NCBI RefSeq assembly: GCF_001421535.1
Contig: NZ_LMKN01000008.1
Span: 473,952-537,951, forward strand
Direction of reading: 5' to 3'
Length of the DNA stretch: 64,000 nt
From: Sphingomonas sp. Leaf20
GTDB taxonomy: Bacteria; Pseudomonadota; Alphaproteobacteria; Sphingomonadales; Sphingomonadaceae
The stretch's first letter is position 1. Each line of letters starts with the position of its first letter. Positions 55,312 through 64,000 of this stretch are shown here, piece by piece. The translations under genes and the position numbers were made by a program. The notes beneath the pieces are model-generated. The model searched no databases and was not told the DNA's origin. It worked only from the letters and a program-made list of their open reading frames with translations.

Positions 55312-56621
55312 TACCAGCGGGTCTCGAACTTGTTGCGGAGGTAGATCGCGACGCCGTTCATCGCGAGCAGGAAGACGAGCAGGACGATGATCGCGGCCGA
55401 CGTCTTCTCGACGAAACCGCGGCTGACCTGGTCGGACCACAGGAAGATCTGCACGGGGAGCACGGTCGCAGGGTCGCGCAGCCCCGATGGCGGTGCGGCG
55501 ATGAACGCGCGCATGCCGATCATCAGCAGCGGGGCGGTCTCACCCAGCGCACGCGCCATGCCGATGATCGTGCCGGTCAGGATGCCGGGCAGCGCGAGCG
55601 GCAGGACGTGGTGGAAGACGACCTGGACCGGCGACGCGCCGATGCCGAGGGCTGCATCGCGGATCGACGGCGGCACCGCCTTGATCGCGTTGCGCCCGGC
55701 GATCACGATCACCGGCATCGTCATCAGCGCGAGCGTCAGCCCGCCGACGATCGGCGCCGAGCGCGGCATCCCGAACGTACCGAGGAACACCGCAAGCCCG
55801 AGCAGCCCGAAGATGATCGAGGGTACCGCGGCGAGGTTGTTGATCGACACCTCGATCAGGTCGGTCCAGCGGTTCTTCGGCGCATATTCCTCGAGATACA
55901 GCGCGGAAAGCACGCCGATCGGGAAGGCGAGCAGCAGCGTGACGATCATCGTCAGCAGCGATCCCTTGAACGCGCCCCAGATGCCGACGCGCGTCGCATC
56001 GGTCGAATCGGCGGTGGTCAGGAACGTCATGCTCAGCCCGCGCGTCAGCACGCCGCGCGCCTTGAGCCGGGCGACGACCGCCTCCGCCTCGGGCGGACCG
56101 TCGCCCTTGGCGGCCATGTCGATCGGGCTCGCGACCGGCACGTCGATCACCGTCTTGCGCGACAGCAGGCCTGGATCCGCCTTCAGCGCATCGCGCACCG
56201 TGACCCACGCGCCGTCGGACAACAGGCCTTCGCCATCCTTGCCGAACGCGTCCGTCGCCGCGCTGTCGACCGCGCCCTCGAGCCCGGCACCGGCCAGCGC
56301 CAGATCGGCACCACGCGTTTGCAATCGCGCAGGATCGATCGGCAGCGCGACCGCGGTGAAGTCGATCGGCAACGCGACCCGCGTCTCGACGAACCCGCTC
56401 GCGCCCTGCCACAGCATCGACGCCAGCAGGAAGGCGAGGAACCCTGCGGACAGCCAGACCGCGGCGAGCCCGGCGAGCCGGAACCGGCGCTCGGCTGCAT
56501 AACGCCGGCGGATGCGCGTCTGCATCGCCTTCGTCGTCCAGTCGGTCGGCACGCGCGCCGTGGCGGGCTTCGCCGAGGCCGTAGCGTCTGGCGTGCCGAT
56601 GAAGGGGGTGACGCTATTCAT
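55311..56621 (-). CDS. pstA: Phosphate ABC transporter permease PstA
   Basis: 436 aa. Long N-terminal extension with one membrane helix and a periplasmic part (about 40-210) resembling DUF3333, then six membrane segments with the permease loop [44 protein letters not shown] (EAA motif). Overlaps pstC by 8 bases. Confidence 0.95.
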
Positions 56622-57990
56622 AGGCTTCGCGGTACCGTTTCACGACCGTCAGCGCGACGATGTTGAGGAGCAGAGTGACGACGAACAGCGTCAGCCCCAG
56701 CGCAAAGGCGGCAAGCGTCTTCGCGCTGTCGAATTCGGCCTCGCCGGTGAGCAGGTCGACGATCTGCTTGGTGACGGTCGTCGTGCTGGCGAACGGGTTG
56801 AGCGTCAGCGTCGCGACGCCGCTCGCGGCCATCACGACGATCATCGTCTCGCCGATCGCGCGGCTGACCGCGAGGAGGACGCCGCCGACGACGCCGGGCA
56901 GCGCGGCGGGGAGCAGCACGCGGCGGATCGTCTCGGACGAGGTCGCGCCCATCGCCAGGCTGCCGTCGCGCATCGACGAGGGGACCGCGGCGATCGAATC
57001 GTCCGCCATCGACGAGACGAACGGGATGATCATGATCCCCATCACGAGTCCGGCGGCCAGCGCGCTCTCCGACGAGGCCCAGCTGATCCCGATCCACACC
57101 GCGAAATCGCGCACCGCCGGCGCCACCGTCAGCGCGGCGAAATAACCATAGACGACGGTCGGCACGCCCGCGAGCACCTCGAGGATCGGCTTCATCCACT
57201 TGCGCGTGGTCGGGGCGGCATATTGCGTGAGGTAGATCGCGCTCATCAGCCCGAACGGGATCGCGACGATCATCGCGATTACCGCGCCGATGAAGAACGT
57301 CCCCCAGAACAGCGGCACTGCGCCGAGCGACGCGCCCGGATCGCGCGCATCGACGACCTGCGGGCTCCAGTGCGTGCCGAACAGGAAGTCGGTGATCGGC
57401 ACGATCGAGAAGAAGCGCGCGGATTCGTACAGCAGCGAGGCGACGATGCCGACCGTGGTCAGGATCGCGATCAGCGACGCACCGAGCAGCAGGATCATGA
57501 CGATCCGCTCGACCCGCGTCCGCGCGCCGAACCCCGGCCGCACGCGCAGGAACGCGAAGGTCCCGCCGGCAAAGGCGAGTAGCAGCGCGAGCGCGGTCGC
57601 GATCCAGTCGAACCGCGACTGCGCGGCCGCATAGACCGGCGACAGCACGCGGGCGAGCTCGTGGAACGCGCCGAAGCTGCGTCCTTCGGCGAGGCTGCGC
57701 GCCTCCGACAGGATCGACGCACGGTCGAAGCCCGGTGGCGGCAGCTGCACCGCGGCGGGGCTGGCAAGCACGGTGTCGGTGACCAGCGCGGGCGCGACGA
57801 GCGACCAGGCGACGAGGAAGACGAGCGGCGGGATCGCGGTCCACAGCGCGACATACCAGCCATGATGCGAGGGCAGCGAGCTGAACCGCGCCGTGCTGCC
57901 GACACGGAACCGCGCCGCGCGCATGCGGGCGCTCAGCCACGCGATCAGCCCGAGCCCGAGCACGAGGAACAGCAATGCGATCGGCGACAT
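56614..57990 (-). CDS. pstC: Phosphate ABC transporter permease PstC
   Basis: 458 aa, longer than the ~320 aa E. coli form because of an N-terminal extension with extra membrane segments. The permease core carries the EAA-type loop AMGATSSETIRRVLLPAALPGVVGGVLLAVSRAIGETMIVVMAA. A hairpin spans the pstS-pstC gap just before its ATG; GGAAGG lies about 10 bases upstream. Confidence 0.95.
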   Translation of the reverse strand: MSPIALLFLVLGLGLIAWLSARMRAARFRVGSTARFSSLPSHHGWYVALWTAIPPLVFLVAWSLVAPALVTDTVLASPAAVQLPPPGFDRASILSEARSLAEGRSFGAFHELARVLSPVYAAAQSRFDWIATALALLLAFAGGTFAFLRVRPGFGARTRVERIVMILLLGASLIAILTTVGIVASLLYESARFFSIVPITDFLFGTHWSPQVVDARDPGASLGAVPLFWGTFFIGAVIAMIVAIPFGLMSAIYLTQYAAPTTRKWMKPILEVLAGVPTVVYGYFAALTVAPAVRDFAVWIGISWASSESALAAGLVMGIMIIPFVSSMADDSIAAVPSSMRDGSLAMGATSSETIRRVLLPAALPGVVGGVLLAVSRAIGETMIVVMAASGVATLTLNPFASTTTVTKQIVDLLTGEAEFDSAKTLAAFALGLTLFVVTLLLNIVALTVVKRYREAYE

Positions 57991-58105
57991 CAGGCGTGGC
58001 CTTCCATTGCTGCCACCTGGGCAGGCGCCACGCGAATGCCGATCCGTACCATTCCGGCCTTCGCCGAAATAATGCCGTCTCTGAGTGAAGGCAAAAGCGG
58101 GGGCA
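57991..58105 (-). promoter_or_regulatory. pstS-pstC spacer with hairpin over the pstC ribosome-binding region
   Basis: 115 bases, the longest spacer in the Pho cluster. GCGTGGC (57994-58000) pairs with GCCACGC (58027-58033), with inner CTGCC (58010-58014) against GGCAG (58020-58024). The structure ends 4 bases before the pstC start codon and encloses its GGAAGG. It may protect the pstS 3' end or slow pstC translation. Confidence 0.45.
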
Positions 58106-59173
58106 TCACGACAGCACCGCCGGATCGAGGATCGTCTCGTTGGCGATGATCGCCGCGGATCGTGCCTGGATTTCGGGCGGGGCGGCGATCAGGCCGCGCC
58201 TGACCAGCGGCCCGGTCGCACTCCAGTTCGCGGCGTAGAGTTTCAGCAATGTCCGCAGTCCCGGAATAGCACTCAGATGCGCCTTCTTCACATAGATGTA
58301 GAGCGGGCGCGATCCGGGGTAGCGATTGTCCGCGATCGTCGCATAGGTCGGCGCGACGCCGGATATCGCGACGCCGTTCACGTCGTTCTTGTTCTCCTCC
58401 AGATAGCTGTAGCCGAACACCCCGATCGCGTTGGGGTTGGACTGGAGTTTCTGGACGATGAGATTGTCGTTCTCGCCGGCGTCGACATACATCCCGTCCT
58501 CGCGGACGCGCGTGCACAGCGCCTTGTGTGCGTCGGGATCGGACTTGGCGAGCGGCTTGGCGGTCGGATCACTCGCCTCGCACCCCTTGGTCAGGATCAG
58601 TTCGGCGAGCGCATCGCGCGTGCCGCTCGTCGCGGGCGGGCCATAGACCTGGATCGGGATCGCGGGCAGCGCTGGGTTCACGTCGCGCCAGACGCGCGCG
58701 GTATTGGGCGCGCCGCCCGGACGCGCGGCGAGCGCCTTGTACAGGTCGGTCGGCGTCAGCTGCATCTTGGGGCCGTTCTTCGCCTCGGCAAAGGCGATGC
58801 CGTCGATCCCGACCTGGATCTCGAGGATCTGGCCCGCGCCGTTGGCCGCGCAGGATTTATACTCGCTCGCCTTCATCCGGCGCGACGCATCCTCGATATC
58901 GGGATGTCCCGCGCCAATGCCCGCACAGAACAGCTTCATGCCGGCGCCGGTGCCGGTCGACTCGATGACCGGCGCCTTGGCGTCGGGATCGTTCGCGACC
59001 AGCTGCTCGGCGATCATCGTCGTGAACGGATAGACCGTCGACGATCCCACCGCGGTGATCTGATCGCGCGACCCCGCGCCGCCGCCATTGGCCTGATCGA
59101 CGCACCCGGCCGAGAGCACGGCGATCGCCAGCCCTGAAATCATCCCGATACGCTGCACGTCGATCCCCGTCAT
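58106..59173 (-). CDS. pstS: Phosphate-binding lipoprotein PstS
   Basis: 355 aa. Signal sequence with lipobox LSAGC (C24), then the PstS fold: ITAVGSSTVYPFTTMIAEQL (phosphate-binding TVYP/S region), ESTGTGAGMKLFCAGIGAGHPDIEDASRRMK, and YGPPATSGTRDALAEL. Captures phosphate in the periplasm for PstCAB. Unusually it shares the operon with phoR upstream. ATG 59143 would give a shorter signal. Confidence 0.94.
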   Translation of the reverse strand: MTGIDVQRIGMISGLAIAVLSAGCVDQANGGGAGSRDQITAVGSSTVYPFTTMIAEQLVANDPDAKAPVIESTGTGAGMKLFCAGIGAGHPDIEDASRRMKASEYKSCAANGAGQILEIQVGIDGIAFAEAKNGPKMQLTPTDLYKALAARPGGAPNTARVWRDVNPALPAIPIQVYGPPATSGTRDALAELILTKGCEASDPTAKPLAKSDPDAHKALCTRVREDGMYVDAGENDNLIVQKLQSNPNAIGVFGYSYLEENKNDVNGVAISGVAPTYATIADNRYPGSRPLYIYVKKAHLSAIPGLRTLLKLYAANWSATGPLVRRGLIAAPPEIQARSAAIIANETILDPAVLS

Positions 59174-59219
59174 GGCCGCGTCCTAGCGTGGCTTGAGCGG
59201 ATCCTGTGTGACAGTTGCG

Positions 59220-60467
59220 TTACCGTTTGATGACACGCGTCGAATTGCCGGCCGCATCGCTCGCCCCGCTGCGCCCCGGCGGCAGCGTCACCGAGACGGT
59301 CGTGCCGACGCCGACCTGGCTGCTGATGTCCAGACGACCGCGGTGGCGCTCGACGATGTGCTTGACGATCGCGAGGCCAAGCCCCGTCCCGCCGACCGAT
59401 CGGCTCCGCCCCGCATCGGCGCGGTAGAACCGCTCGGTCAGCCGCGGGATATGCATCGCGGCGATCCCGTCGCCCTCGTCGCGCACCGACAGGCGCACCA
59501 TTCCGCTGTCGTCGCGGGTCAGCGTGATCGCGATCGGCGTCCCGGCGCGGCCATATTTCATCGCGTTCCCGACCAAATTGTGCAGCATCTGCGACAGCTG
59601 CACACGGTCGCCCGAGACCGTATCGACGTCGGGGGCGATCGTCGCGACCAGGTCGCGTCCGCGATTGCTCGCGCCGTCGGCAAGCTCCGAGCGGACGTCC
59701 TCGACGAGGCGGGCAAGGTCGATCGGCGTGTCGGGAACGCGATATTTCTCCGCTTCGATCCGGCTGAGCGAGATCAGGTCCTCGATCAGCCGCAGCATCC
59801 GCTTCGCCTCGTCGTCCATGACCTTCAGGAAGCGGGCGCGGATCGCCGGATCCTCGCCAGCCTCGTCGCTGAGCGTTTCAATGAAGCCGAGGATCGAGGC
59901 GAGCGGCGTGCGCAGTTCGTGGCTCGCGTTCGCGACGAAGTCGACGCGCATCCGCTCGGCGGCATGATGGCCGGTCTGGTCGATCAGATGGACGATGCGC
60001 TGACCGTCCGACACTTCACCGACGCGCATCTCCCAGTGCTGGTCACGCGTGCCGAGCCCGACCAGTGCGATCGGCGGCGTCTCGCGCAGGACGGATCCGG
60101 ACGACAATGCCTCCGCCGCGGCGGGGTGGCGGATCGCGACGCGCGCATCCTCGCCGACGATATGGTCGCCGAGCAGCGCGCGGGCGGCGCTGTTCGCGAG
60201 CCCCACCCGCCCTTCGCGGACGAGCAGCACAGGGCCGACGATCGCGTCCAGAGTCTCGTCGAGGATCGCCGTGCCGGGGGGCGGTGCCTCCTCGGTGGCG
60301 GCCGGCGATTCGTCGCCGGTCCCGGCCGCGACCAACGCCGCCGCGACGCCGCCGACCAGCGCGACGAGCGTTTCCTGGACGGACTGGCCGATCGCGAAGA
60401 CGGCGCCCGCCGCACCCGCCGCCACGATGATCGCCCAAAAGGTGCGCAGGCCAAATCCGGTCAACAT
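59220..60467 (-). CDS. phoR: Phosphate regulon sensor histidine kinase
   Basis: 415 aa. Two N-terminal hydrophobic segments (about 5-45), a PAS-like domain (about 70-165), HisKA with H183 in DFVANASHELRTPLASILGFIETL, and HATPase with NLVGNAMKYG, RDEGDGIA, and GGTGLGLAIVKHIVERH. Senses phosphate status through PstSCAB-PhoU and phosphorylates PhoB. First gene of the cluster; divergent from the HPr-rel-A genes across 131 bases. I see no complete Pho box there. Confidence 0.94.
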   Translation of the reverse strand: MLTGFGLRTFWAIIVAAGAAGAVFAIGQSVQETLVALVGGVAAALVAAGTGDESPAATEEAPPPGTAILDETLDAIVGPVLLVREGRVGLANSAARALLGDHIVGEDARVAIRHPAAAEALSSGSVLRETPPIALVGLGTRDQHWEMRVGEVSDGQRIVHLIDQTGHHAAERMRVDFVANASHELRTPLASILGFIETLSDEAGEDPAIRARFLKVMDDEAKRMLRLIEDLISLSRIEAEKYRVPDTPIDLARLVEDVRSELADGASNRGRDLVATIAPDVDTVSGDRVQLSQMLHNLVGNAMKYGRAGTPIAITLTRDDSGMVRLSVRDEGDGIAAMHIPRLTERFYRADAGRSRSVGGTGLGLAIVKHIVERHRGRLDISSQVGVGTTVSVTLPPGRSGASDAAGNSTRVIKR

Positions 60468-60598
60468 GCGCGCCTGTCTACCGCATCGGCGGCACGGCGC
60501 CAGCCCGTCCCGCAACGGCACGGCGCGGCCGACGCGACGGGGCCGTTGCTTGCCTCGTCTTCAGCTTTGTGAAAGGGCTTTGGTGTAGCGGAGACCCG

Positions 60599-61018
60599 AT
60601 GAGCGACGATACGCGCCCCGATGACGACCAGCCGATCGGCACCGACCCGGTGGCGAGCCGGCGTCGCGTCCTCGCGCTCGGCGCGGTTGGTGCGGCGGCG
60701 GTCGTTTCGATCCGTCCCGCGCTCGCGCAGACCGCGGGATCGGTGCTGAACTGCGACATCCCGGTACCCGACCCGGGCCGCGCGGGCAGCTTCATCGATG
60801 CGCAGGGCAAGGTGGTGCCATCGGGTACCAAGGGCGCATTCCCCGGTGCGACGCGGCCGTTCAAGGGCGAGGAGGTCAAGCGCACGCTGGCGACCGGCGC
60901 GCAGCTGCCCGGAACCGACGCCGAACGCAGCCGCGCCTATGTGAACTATATCCGCCGGTTGCAGCGTGGCCAGGGCGGCTTCACCTGCTTTGCCTCGTTG
61001 CAGATGCCGCGCGGCTGA
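60599..61018 (+). CDS. Small Tat-type exported protein of the HPr-rel-A cluster
   Basis: 139 aa. N-terminal acidic leader, then SRRRVLALGAVGAAAVVSIRPALAQ, a twin-arginine-type signal with a likely cleavage after ALA (residue 43). The mature ~95 residues include conserved-looking NCDIPVPDPGRAGSFIDAQGK and a C-terminal GGFTCFASLQMPRG; Cys at 52 and 130. GGAG lies 5 bases before ATG 60599. No family recognised. As the first gene of a cluster with a PqqD-like protein, a kinase and a nucleotidyltransferase, it is a candidate modification substrate (inference). Confidence 0.8.
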   Translation: MSDDTRPDDDQPIGTDPVASRRRVLALGAVGAAAVVSIRPALAQTAGSVLNCDIPVPDPGRAGSFIDAQGKVVPSGTKGAFPGATRPFKGEEVKRTLATGAQLPGTDAERSRAYVNYIRRLQRGQGGFTCFASLQMPRG

Positions 61019-61022
61019 CGCC

Positions 61023-61307
61023 GTGGACGATGCCGCGCCGGTGACGTTTCGCGCGGATCCGGCGGATGCGCGGCGGGCCGCGCCGCTCGATGCGTTCACC
61101 GCGGTCTATCATCGCCGGTCGGGCATCACGCACCTGCTCACCGAACCCGCGCCGCAGATCCTGGCGATCCTGAGCGAGCACAGCCTGTCGCTCGACGCGC
61201 TGCTCGCGCGTCTTTCGCAGGATTATGATCTTGCCGACCCGACGCGCGACGCGCTCGCGGCGCGGCTCGACGAGCTCGTCGTGGCAGGGCTGGTGACGGC
61301 GTCGTGA
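61023..61307 (+). CDS. PqqD-family protein of the HPr-rel-A system
   Basis: 94 aa. It resembles PqqD-like peptide-binding (RiPP recognition element) proteins: AVYHRRSGITHLLTEPAPQILAILSEHSLSLDALLARLSQDYD, then a helical C-terminus, the pattern of the HPr-rel-A system PqqD family (NCBIfam name, recalled). GTG 61023 follows the previous stop by 4 bases; the stop overlaps the next gene's GTG (GTGA). In other systems such proteins deliver a leader peptide to a modifying enzyme. Confidence 0.8.
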   Translation: MDDAAPVTFRADPADARRAAPLDAFTAVYHRRSGITHLLTEPAPQILAILSEHSLSLDALLARLSQDYDLADPTRDALAARLDELVVAGLVTAS

Positions 61308-62164
61308 GACACGCGGTATCGCTGCGGATCGGGCCGATCGGCTTTCGGATCGGGTCGGACTGGCGCGCGCCGATCGACCAGCTTCGCAGCCTCTATCGTG
61401 ACTATCCGCAACCGCACGACGGGGTCGCGGACTATACCGTGCGGCTGTTCGCGCGGCGACCCTGGCGGCGGTGGATTCGCCCCTCGGTGGAGATCGGGGG
61501 CGACTATATGCTGCCTGAGGCCGCGCCGCTGCCGTTGCGGCAGGGCCTGCTCGCGGCCGAGATGGCGATGAACCTTCAGATGGCGCTGGGCGCGCGGCGG
61601 TATCTGCTGCTCCACGCGTCGGCGGTGGAGCGTGACGGGCGCGCGGTGCTCATGACGGGCATCTCGGGCGCGGGCAAGTCGACGCTGGCGACATTGCTCG
61701 CGGCGCGGGGGTGGCGGTTCATGGGCGACGAGTTCGCATTGCTCGACCCCGAGACCGGGCTGGTCCACGCGTTCCCGCGTCTGATCAGCCTCAAGAACGA
61801 GGCGATCGCAGCGGCCCAGGCTGCGTGGCCGAACGCGCGGATGGGGCCATTGCTGGCGTCGACGCCGAAGGGCGACATCCGTCACATGGTTCCCGACGCG
61901 CGCGCGATCGCGGCGATGGACGTGCCGGCGACGCCGGCGCTGTTGCTGTTCCCGCGCTACGGGTTCGCGGCGGCGGTGCGCGCCGTTCCGCCCGCCGAGG
62001 CGTTCGTGCGGATGACGCAGGCCTCGACCAACTATGTCGCGCTCGGCGAGCCCGGGTTCGCAGCGCTGACGGGGCTCATCGCCCGCATCCCGTCGATCGC
62101 GATCGACTATCCCGACGGTGACAGCGCGGTCGCGCAGGTCGAGGCGTTGTGCGCGCCGCGATGA
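61304..62164 (+). CDS. HprK-related kinase A
   Basis: 286 aa. P-loop GISGAGKST at 119-127 preceded by LLLHASAVERDGRAVLMT, and GDEFALLDPETG near 141-152, matching the HPr kinase/phosphorylase catalytic fold in the HprK-related kinase A family. The HPr-binding N-terminal domain of true HprK is replaced by a different ~100-residue region with several aromatic and basic residues. No ptsH homolog is in the window, so its phospho-acceptor is unknown. GTG start overlaps the previous stop; the stop overlaps the next start. Confidence 0.85.
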   Translation: MRHAVSLRIGPIGFRIGSDWRAPIDQLRSLYRDYPQPHDGVADYTVRLFARRPWRRWIRPSVEIGGDYMLPEAAPLPLRQGLLAAEMAMNLQMALGARRYLLLHASAVERDGRAVLMTGISGAGKSTLATLLAARGWRFMGDEFALLDPETGLVHAFPRLISLKNEAIAAAQAAWPNARMGPLLASTPKGDIRHMVPDARAIAAMDVPATPALLLFPRYGFAAAVRAVPPAEAFVRMTQASTNYVALGEPGFAALTGLIARIPSIAIDYPDGDSAVAQVEALCAPR

Positions 62165-63174
62165 CTGACCCCGTCACCCGAACCCCGGCGAGCGCGCGGT
62201 TTCTCGCGCAGGCACTGGCCGAACCGTCGATCGTGACGCGTCTCGATCCGGCGGGCTGGAGCGCGGTGCTGACGATGGCGCGGGCGGAGCAGTTGATCGG
62301 AACGCTCGCGATGCGGCTCGACGGCTTGCCGATGCCGGGGGCGGTCGCCGCTATCCTCGCCGACGCGCGCGCCGCCGCGGAGCAGGGCCGGCGTGCCGCG
62401 CTGTGGGAAGCGGAGATGGCGCGGCGGGCGCTCGCGCCGCTTGGCTGTCCGGTGGTGGTGCTGAAGGGGACCGCGTTTGTCGCCGCGGGGCTGATGGCGG
62501 GGCAGGGGCGGTCGATCGGCGATCTCGACATCCTCGTCCCGCGCGATGCGCTCGATGCGGCCGAGACGGCGCTGCTGGCGGCGGGCTGGGAATGGGTGAA
62601 GCCCGATCCGTACGACGACGCCTATTACCGGCGCTGGATGCATGAATTGCCGCCGCTCATCCACCGCGAGCGCGACCGGATGATCGACGTCCACCACAGC
62701 ATCCTGCCGCTTACCGCGCGCATCACGCCCGACCCGGTGGCGCTGATCGCGGACAGCGTGCCGCTCGGCAACGGGCTGTCCGTCCTGTCGCCGAACGGGA
62801 TGATCGTCCATGCCGCCGCGCATCTGTTCGCCGATGGCGATCTCGCCGGCGGCCTGCGCAACCTGTGGGACGTCCGCTGCCTGATCGAGGAATTCGGCAC
62901 GCAGGGTCTCGCGGACGACGCGGATCGCCACGGTTTGCGGATCGAGGTCGAGCGCGCGGTGCGTCTCGTCGAATGCCTGTTCGGAGAGCGCCCAGCGACC
63001 GGGATCGACCGGCTGTTCGTCCGCCGGATGACCGCGCGCGATGGCTGGGGGCGACCGACCCGGCCGGTCACGCGGCTCGCGTTCTACATCCGGTCGCACT
63101 GGCTGCGCATGCCGCCGGCGATGCTCGCGCGGCATCTATGGGCGAAATGGCGCAAGGCCCGCGCGCGCGTCTAG
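62161..63174 (+). CDS. Nucleotidyltransferase (NTP_transf_5-like) of the HPr-rel-A cluster
   Basis: 337 aa. The polymerase-beta-like motif is seen in CPVVVLKGTAFVAAGLMAGQGRSIGDLDILVPRDAL, with metal-binding D121 and D123, then helical regions with WMHELPPLIHRERDRMIDVHHSILPLTA. Members of this family often accompany cell-surface or peptide-modification clusters, but their donor and acceptor are unknown. Overlaps both neighbours; its 3' end overlaps the convergent VanZ-like gene by 4 bases. Confidence 0.82.
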   Translation: MTDPVTRTPASARFLAQALAEPSIVTRLDPAGWSAVLTMARAEQLIGTLAMRLDGLPMPGAVAAILADARAAAEQGRRAALWEAEMARRALAPLGCPVVVLKGTAFVAAGLMAGQGRSIGDLDILVPRDALDAAETALLAAGWEWVKPDPYDDAYYRRWMHELPPLIHRERDRMIDVHHSILPLTARITPDPVALIADSVPLGNGLSVLSPNGMIVHAAAHLFADGDLAGGLRNLWDVRCLIEEFGTQGLADDADRHGLRIEVERAVRLVECLFGERPATGIDRLFVRRMTARDGWGRPTRPVTRLAFYIRSHWLRMPPAMLARHLWAKWRKARARV

Positions 63175-63551
63175 TGCAGCGTGCGTATCCGCGGTGGGCG
63201 GCTCTGTCGGACCAGCGCGATGATCGCGACGACCAGCGCGATCGCGATCGTGTCGGCGATCCAGTCGCCAATGTCGCAATCGCGGTGCAGCGACGGAATG
63301 GACTGCAGCACCTCGACCATCGCGCCCAGAAACGACAGGCGTTCGAGCACCTTCCATCCGCGTGCGGCGGGATAGGCGAACGACGCGAGCGCCGCGAGCG
63401 TGGCGAAGGCGAGCATGTGCTGGAACTTGTCGCCGAACCGGTCGATCGGCAAATGCGGCGGCTTGGGCAACAGCGCCATGGTCATCGCGACGACGATCGC
63501 GACGACGAGCGCGATCTTGAAAAATCCGGTCAGGTCGCGGTCGCGCCTCAT
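63171..63551 (-). CDS. VanZ-like family membrane protein
   Basis: 126 aa with four hydrophobic segments (about 10-26, 48-62, 72-88, 100-118). DRFGDKFQHMLAFATLAALASFA and GAMVEVLQSIPSLHRDCDIGDWIADTIAIAL contain the VanZ-like D-K-x-x-H and E-x-x-Q/D-x-x-D patterns. Function unknown. Overlaps the downstream HAD gene start region by 4 bases. Confidence 0.82.
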   Translation of the reverse strand: MRRDRDLTGFFKIALVVAIVVAMTMALLPKPPHLPIDRFGDKFQHMLAFATLAALASFAYPAARGWKVLERLSFLGAMVEVLQSIPSLHRDCDIGDWIADTIAIALVVAIIALVRQSRPPRIRTLH

Positions 63552-64000
63552 CGCGACAGGCCTTCGAGCGTGGGGATCAGCGCGTCGAACGCGTCGATCA
63601 CCGCATCCGCGCCAAGCTCGTCGACCGGCTGCATCAGGAACCCGAAGCTGCAGGCGATCGCCGGAAGCCCCGCCGACTGCGCCGCCTGGATGTCGAAGAT
63701 CGAATCGCCGACGAACGCCGCCCGGTCGCCCCGGGCCTGTTGCGCACAGAGCCGGACCATCTCGTGGATGGGCATCGGCGAGGGTTTGGACTGCGTCAGC
63801 GTATCGCCCCCGAGGACACAGGCGAACCGATCGGTCAGGTCGAGCTGGTCGAGGACGATGCGCGCGAACCGCTCGATCTTGTTGGTGACGATCCCGAGCG
63901 TGACCCCGCGCGCCGCGAGCGCGTCGAGTGCATCGATCACGCCGGGATAGGGCCTCGTCAGCACGCAGATATTGGCTTCGTAATGCGCGAGCAGCGCGGC
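63548..64000 (-). CDS. HAD-family hydrolase, phosphoglycolate phosphatase-like (C-terminal part)
   Basis: The frame runs off the right edge of the window; 150 residues of the C-terminal portion are present. Seen: GVTLGIVTNKIERFARIVL (motif II), KPSPMPIHEMVRLC (motif III Lys), and AFVGDSIFDIQAAQSAGLPAIACSFGF (motif IV). These match Gph-type phosphatases that remove phosphoglycolate from DNA repair or oxygenase side reactions. The N-terminal motif I lies outside the window. Confidence 0.85.
   Translation of the reverse strand, partial: AALLAHYEANICVLTRPYPGVIDALDALAARGVTLGIVTNKIERFARIVLDQLDLTDRFACVLGGDTLTQSKPSPMPIHEMVRLCAQQARGDRAAFVGDSIFDIQAAQSAGLPAIACSFGFLMQPVDELGADAVIDAFDALIPTLEGLSR

Follow-up and report, generated by a model that had tools for sequence, protein, structure and literature searches.

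A four-gene HPr-rel-A cluster of Sphingomonas as a candidate RiPP-like pathway for phospho-modification of a small, predicted Tat-exported protein

Here we describe four consecutive genes in a 64,000-nucleotide stretch of DNA from Sphingomonas sp. Leaf20, the whole of which we call the window. The genes, all on the plus strand between positions 60599 and 63174, within the last 3.5 kb of the window, code for a small protein with a predicted twin-arginine translocation (Tat) signal, called S in what follows, a PqqD-like protein, an HprK-related kinase and a nucleotidyltransferase. It is our belief, held with somewhat more confidence than doubt, that they form a pathway resembling those of ribosomally synthesized and post-translationally modified peptides (RiPPs), in which S receives a phospho-modification before its export, with Ser133 as the likely acceptor. 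Namely, the PqqD-like protein would bind S via its signal peptide, phosphorylation of Ser133, in a C-terminal [ST]CxxS tail, is the predicted task of the kinase, and the nucleotidyltransferase would add a nucleotide or a sugar onto the resulting phosphate. The modified protein is then predicted to leave the cytoplasm by the Tat route, which would be used because modification, perhaps along with folding, comes before export, and the exported product may serve phosphate sensing or a function at the cell surface. The roles of S as precursor, of its Tat signal as leader and of Ser133 as acceptor are ones that we infer by analogy with the systems discussed below.

The arrangement of the genes is compact. 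The gene for S (60599..61018, 139 residues) is followed after a 4-base gap by that of the PqqD-like protein, which is of the RiPP recognition element (RRE) type (61023..61307, 94 residues; TIGR04353, 63.2 bits with a cut-off of 35). The latter overlaps the kinase gene (61304..62164; TIGR04352 or HprK_rel_A, 242.2 bits with a cut-off of 200) by the bases GTGA, and the kinase gene in turn overlaps the nucleotidyltransferase gene (62161..63174; PF14907 or NTP_transf_5, 162.2 bits with a cut-off of 31.2) by ATGA. The preliminary description of this DNA had named the same four joined reading frames and the same three kinds of enzyme or carrier protein, and both are borne out by these matches. Since TIGR04352 and the adjoining TIGR04353 both score above their curated cut-offs, the cluster belongs to the HPr-rel-A group, for which the NCBIfam model names, as retrieved, state no substrate. 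A search limited to a library of open-access papers found none on HPr-rel-A or the HprK-related kinase, and none joining a Tat signal with an HPr kinase and RiPPs, or with an RRE and a precursor peptide, or PqqD with HprK and a nucleotidyltransferase. The twelve kinases nearest to that of the window are 97-99% identical to it, and those with a taxon name come from Sphingomonas. S itself has no family match in Pfam or NCBIfam at E <= 0.1.

The first line of evidence comes from the distribution of S across the order to which Sphingomonas belongs. In a draw of 246 genomes of this order, the kinase model scores above its cut-off in 105, and two near-misses (G093 with 197.7 bits and G006 with 187.8 bits) were counted as well, giving 107 kinase genomes, which were examined with iterated profiles in 106 fetched kinase regions and, for the 107th, in the window. 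According to the preliminary description, absence of the small gene from most clusters with the other three would have refuted it as substrate; in fact, not one of the 107 kinase genomes lacks S, which was found at 86 loci by profile, at 20 by requiring a Tat-like signal together with a C-terminal CxxS, and at one by eye (L168, in G006). In the opposite direction, a broad S profile of 20 rows (A6) matches 105 of the 246 genomes, all of them kinase-bearing, and misses two kinase genomes, G006 and G036, in which S is present by reading, while it gives no convincing match in the 139 genomes of the order without the kinase. It should be noted that A6 includes S sequences from many of the same families, and is therefore not an independent discovery of S, yet it is a fair test for S without the kinase. 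Among genomes whose kinase score is neither above nor near the cut-off, an earlier profile, A1, matched only one (G194, E 7e-4); this match covered 38 positions of a 1126-residue frame, was lost with the broader profile and was rejected.

Of the 120 stretches examined, which comprise the window and 119 loci and include some fetched for S alone, 106 hold the transferase and 108 the PqqD-like protein. In 11 of the 107 genomes, S lies on a different fetched locus than the kinase: nine of these belong to genus g5, in whose other genomes S and kinase are linked, the tenth is G053, in which S sits together with the PqqD gene, and the eleventh is G045, an assembly with broken contigs. Among named genomes, the best 80 of 585 confirmed loci, by title nearly all from the Sphingomonas group, hold kinase, PqqD-like protein and transferase in 80 of 80 cases, S in 79, the tail motif in 78 (in one S part of the sequence is masked) and an opposite-strand phoR nearby in 70. 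At the 80th locus, that of Sphingomonas sp. AOB5, S is on a different contig, beside a phoR 61% identical to that of the window.

Could such a pattern reflect nothing but vertical descent within one order, with the genes inherited together and no functional tie between them? In the draw, the cluster does span some genera completely and is missing from others, as simple co-inheritance would have it. Yet S is kept in every kinase genome, even where unlinked, as in the nine g5 genomes and G053, and in AOB5 as well; moreover, the same tail recurs outside the order, and within S it is kept while the middle diverges. Co-inheritance without function is poorly compatible with these data, and we regard it as extremely improbable.

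The second line of evidence is the anatomy of S. Its predicted Tat-type signal (R21-R23 to A43/Q44, 60659..60730), which we propose to be also the leader, was read from the sequence and the conserved columns as SRRRVLALGAVGAAAVVSIRPALAQ, a hydrophobic core and an AxA site, leaving about 96 residues for the predicted mature protein. By a rule-based test, the two arginines and the hydrophobic core are present in 111 of 111 S; the NCBIfam models do not flag the signal. Homologues of S number 2442 at E <= 0.001 among 2663 candidates. In the 120 best of them, there is hardly any variation in most of the signal core or at the C-terminus (YIRRLQRG..GFTCFASLQMPR), and of the two segments that had been pointed out as conserved-looking in the preliminary description, GGFTCFASLQ is near-invariant and NCDIPVPDP mostly conserved. 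Over 20 divergent S, however, only R22, L25, G28, C52, C130 and S133 are invariant, so that of the former segment just C130 and S133 hold at this distance, and of the latter just C52. In other words, across families S keeps its twin-arginine signal, an early cysteine (C52, 60752..60754, the ninth residue of the predicted mature protein) and, near the C-terminus, a tail of the form [ST]-C-x-x-S, here T129-C130-F-A-S133 (60983..60997), S133 being the proposed phospho-acceptor. Conservation is therefore not limited to the signal peptide, the second outcome that the preliminary description had named as refuting S as substrate.

The spacing of these elements is rather strict. The first cysteine falls 29-33 residues after the arginine pair in 109 of 111 S, a glycine stands three before the tail cysteine in 105 of 111, and a threonine or serine about 15-16 residues after the arginine pair is conserved in the signal core, a comparison made within S only. 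The [ST]CxxS motif is found in the last 75 residues of all 90 open reading frames (ORFs) found by profile, which did not demand it; only the 20 S loci found by rule, and not these 90, were selected with the help of the motif. Among 4723 other ORFs of 80-330 residues from the same loci, rejected candidates included, only 5 combine a Tat-like signal with a C-terminal [ST]CxxS, compared to 111 of 111 S, and the combination is beyond chance. Before counting, false motif hits were dropped, namely the second ORFs of L064 and L165, those of L134, L144 and L161, and L168 7732-7989.

Between its constant ends, S is hypervariable, the middle consisting of short to long runs rich in Asp, Ser or Gly/Asn; in some families of the order (L107, L127, L160, L165, L168 and others) the Asp-rich runs are long. 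The 20 S of profile A6 have neither an NCBIfam nor a Pfam family. Tandem pairs of S occur at L066, L125, L136 and L162, and extra S genes are found elsewhere in eight genomes of genus g45, the three that were fully read (L345, L346, L348) having the same ends. Some of these extra genes (L341, L344, L345) adjoin a sigma-70-like gene with DUF6596, and at L341 there is also a YCII gene. With its constant signal, C52, C130 and S133, its hypervariable middle, and its tandem and orphan copies, S evolves like a RiPP precursor. Distribution and anatomy together support the role of putative substrate which the preliminary description had suggested for S, and which would make it the protein modified by the enzymes encoded downstream.

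As for these enzymes, their catalytic-type residues are conserved without exception. In the kinase, H104 (61613-61615), K125 of the P-loop (61676-61678) and D142-E143 (61727-61732) are unvarying in 145 of 145 rows, and in the transferase K102, G103, D121, D123 and D176 are unvarying in 135 of 135, the rows excluding L159, L166, L179 and L180 as well as sequences with no more than 200 bits (for PqqD, 40). Conservation is poor in the PqqD-like protein. A structure model of the kinase (pLDDT 87) has the PEPCK/HprK fold by structural similarity and shares this fold and the P-loop with HprK/P, whereas in sequence the likeness is weak: PF07475 (Hpr_kinase_C) scores 21.4 bits, under its cut-off of 33.3, and a sequence comparison with solved structures returned P-loop proteins only, HprK/P among them at E 0.006. 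For the transferase, the same comparison returned no solved structure at E <= 1. Kinases of lasso peptide pathways share a His-Lys-Asp-Asp motif whose importance was shown by mutation, according to a review (PMC9266682). Judged by sequence, the H104-K125-D142-E143 set of the window is close to this motif, the first three residues agreeing and the fourth being Glu.

Two known kinds of system bring these enzyme types together. In paeninodin-type lasso pathways, HprK-like kinases phosphorylate a C-terminal Ser of the precursor, and in pseudomycoidin, PsmN is required for the hexose on the phosphate (PMC8498205, PMC9266682). The cluster studied here is like these pathways in its PqqD-like protein (their B1), in an HprK-like kinase, theirs acting on a C-terminal Ser, and in a nucleotidyltransferase, theirs linked to a hexose (PMC8498205, PMC9266682), and unlike them in having neither B2 peptidase nor cyclase, in a kinase with Glu for the last Asp of the motif, and in a putative substrate that is a predicted exported protein. 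Namely, no asparagine-synthase-like cyclase and no B2 peptidase were seen among the four genes and the flanking pstC, pstS, phoR, vanZ-like and HAD genes, scanned to base 64000. In favor of our proposal, the host genome does hold a lasso-like cluster with the same enzyme types elsewhere (L180, G000:C1:508000-520000), with B2 and PqqD over cut-off and a cyclase-like match of 219 of 525 bits; its HprK-like kinase is below cut-offs, with 46% identity over 69 residues to that of the window, and its PF14907 protein is 28% identical over 152 residues to the window's.

The other kind is the pathway of the linear polyphosphorylated peptides (LPP) of Bacillota, likewise consisting of a discrete RRE, an HprK-like kinase and an uncharacterised NTP transferase, with no cyclase, and likewise using precursors with a constant N-terminus and a variable rest; its loci are often near those for polysaccharides, and its physiological role is unknown (PMC13381572). 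The differences are that the LPP pathway includes a leader peptidase resembling SipW, a transporter resembling MsbA and a leader with YxxP (PMC13381572), whereas no SipW-like signal peptidase and no MsbA-like transporter are among the scanned genes of 56614-64000, and the S cluster has a Tat signal in the leader's place, a 139-residue precursor with two family-invariant cysteines and a host from the Pseudomonadota. The LPP kinase, LppK, puts phosphates on one Ser and does not accept the substitutions S3T and S3Y (PMC13381572). For this reason we favor the invariant Ser133 as acceptor over position 129 of S, the residue before the tail cysteine, which is Thr in 58 and Ser in 53 of 111 S.

The tail itself invites a different reading. 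Class III and class IV lanthipeptide enzymes work by kinase-dependent activation of Ser, and the fixed spacing of Cys130 and Ser133 would suit a small thioether ring, formed if Ser133 were phosphorylated, the phosphate eliminated and the cysteine added to the dehydroalanine. No lyase or cyclase family was found among the four genes in Pfam or NCBIfam, the second invariant cysteine, C52, allows a plain disulfide, and in the close relatives the phosphate is retained (PMC8498205, PMC9266682, PMC13381572). We therefore consider a thioether very improbable.

The kinase and its surroundings were also surveyed outside the order. In a draw from the class, 8 of 289 genomes have a kinase match above the cut-off, and in a draw from the phylum 51 of 299, order members being included in both; 40 of the 49 kinase genomes outside the order were fetched (6 of 6 from the class draw and 34 of 43 from the phylum draw). 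In this survey of gene order, of the kind that the preliminary description had called for, 26 of the 40 clusters have an upstream ORF on the same strand with an arginine-pair signal and a tail of the SCWSSL, TCWSSF or SCWTSF type, mostly a few residues from the C-terminus, and up to about 30 residues away in L243-L245. In 9 the upstream ORF has an arginine-pair signal and lacks the tail, and in 5 no partner was found or the contig end intervenes; the counts of 26 and 9 rest on a reading of the ORFs and not on script scoring. Ten tail-bearing partners from outside the order belong to no NCBIfam family.

These outside clusters have features of their own. In all six clusters picked for a large ORF after the kinase (L248, L249, L252, L254, L255, L224), this ORF is a TPR and Sulfotransfer_3 protein, which suggests a possible further modification step in HPr-rel-A clusters outside the order. 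Genes of the XrtA/PEP-CTERM type lie beside some clusters, namely amidotransferase genes (TIGR03108 in L221, and of the Asn-synthase type in L225 and L235) and a glycosyltransferase gene (TIGR03088, L249). Some of the partners without a tail carry GYWK- or GFFKNH-like stretches.

A number of observations weigh against our proposal. Firstly, the 9 tail-less partners (L220, L222, L228, L233, L234, L236, L237, L240 and L242, the last being short) mean that Ser133 cannot be the acceptor everywhere, and four of the 40 outside clusters (L229, L230, L238, L250) have no upstream candidate at all, while in L241 the upstream side is cut by a contig end; L229, L230 and L238 have no PqqD-like match either, and L250 (G649) has a PqqD-like gene only on the strand opposite the kinase. 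Secondly, residues 1-44 of S contain neither Tyr nor Trp, and hence no [YW]xxP of lasso and LPP leaders, the PqqD-like protein scores only 15.0 bits against Pfam PqqD (PF05402), under the cut-off of 23.4, and the structure model of S is weak (pLDDT 63), matching no known fold, with a best PDB match at E 1.3. Thirdly, Glu143 stands in place of Asp in 145 of 145 rows of the kinase, and LppN, the transferase of LPP, seemed inactive in a heterologous host (PMC13381572). Finally, all 11 genomes that have S away from the kinase (nine of g5, G053 and AOB5) have it beside phoR, and S may thus have a role tied to PhoR.

The first of these points bears on where S would be modified. The three enzymes might act at another site of S, such as position 129 with its Thr or Ser, one of the serines of the variable middle, or sites specific to each clade; in favor of this are the tail-less partners, the phosphorylation of LPP near the core N-terminus and not the C-terminus (PMC13381572), and the fact that position 129 is always Thr or Ser. 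Against it, the Ser three after the cysteine is kept in all 90 profile-found S of the order while position 129 is mixed, and the kinases of the related pathways either take Ser only, as does LppK (PMC13381572), or act on a C-terminal Ser, as in the paeninodin type (PMC8498205, PMC9266682). Modification elsewhere in S is, in our opinion, an unlikely alternative. Given the 9 tail-less partners, it is the leader, and not the tail, that we argue to be the constant part of such systems.

The last point leads to the surroundings of the cluster. Immediately upstream and divergent to S, on the minus strand, lies a gene for a PhoR-like sensor histidine kinase (59220..60521; phoR_proteo 294.8 bits, below the cut-off of 334.2), beyond which, on the same strand, are a PstS-like phosphate-binding protein (58106..59173; PF12849, and TIGR02136 with 145.9 bits, below its cut-off of 206.6) and the phosphate permease PstC (56614..57990; TIGR02138, 269.8 bits with a cut-off of 196.45). 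On the other side, the transferase gene is followed on the minus strand by a VanZ-like gene (weak, below cut-off) and a gene for a HAD phosphatase, phosphoglycolate-phosphatase-like by family match and cut by the window end (63548..64000); such a phosphatase is a common neighbor of the three enzymes, matched at 81 of the 109 kinase loci. Of the 103 genomes of the order that could be tested, 93 have S and phoR in divergent orientation; a strict rule finds 89 of these, and the other 4 have overlapping stop-to-stop frames, four genomes with fewer than 700 bases of upstream contig having been left out. In the remaining 10 (L068, L072, L081, L117, L118, L123, L135, L136, L138 and L151) the two are not adjacent. 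In a scan for PHO boxes in 106 regions upstream of S, the best site agreed with the box at 8 of 10 positions in 31 regions, where mononucleotide shuffles led one to expect 17.8, and at 9 of 10 in 4 regions, where 1.5 were expected.

Since S stays next to phoR also in genomes whose enzymes lie elsewhere, a role in phosphate sensing or its regulation is plausible in this order, as judged from gene neighborhoods. One can go further and argue that S is a periplasmic partner of PhoR and Pst and no substrate at all, that the three enzymes act on some unknown peptide, and that the genes merely share a phosphate-regulon neighborhood. The 93 divergent arrangements and the 11 genomes with S beside phoR and apart from the kinase speak for this. 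Against it, no convincing S was found in the 139 genomes of the order without the kinase; moreover, 26 of the 40 outside clusters have a tail-bearing Tat-like partner beside the enzymes, and the search for phoR-like genes in the outside clusters returned none in divergent orientation, the matches being limited to three histidine kinases (40-105 bits) on the strand of the kinase (L247, L250, L251). We regard this explanation as rather improbable, and keep to S as the probable target of the enzymes.

What, then, would the finding mean for the HPr-rel-A family? Modification of peptides by an RRE, an HprK-like kinase and a nucleotidyltransferase is already known; what is added here is a candidate substrate of the HPr-rel-A kinase with one constant, near-terminal Ser. 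More tentatively, and with less confidence than doubt, we suggest that HPr-rel-A may be a system of the Pseudomonadota for tagging proteins before export, in which the Tat signal would double as a RiPP leader, the RRE would capture the precursor, a phospho-sugar or phospho-nucleotide would be built on the serine of CxxS, and the folded, tagged, cysteine-containing protein would then be exported, the system being wired to PhoR in sphingomonads and placed at XrtA/PEP-CTERM exopolysaccharide loci in some other Pseudomonadota. In this way, a system that has been named and not explained would gain a testable substrate, and the question would narrow to a single mass-spectrometry experiment. If our proposal is true, RRE-guided phospho-modification extends from peptides that are short and secreted to entire proteins predicted to use the Tat route, and in one bacterial order such modification would be tied to the sensing of phosphate.

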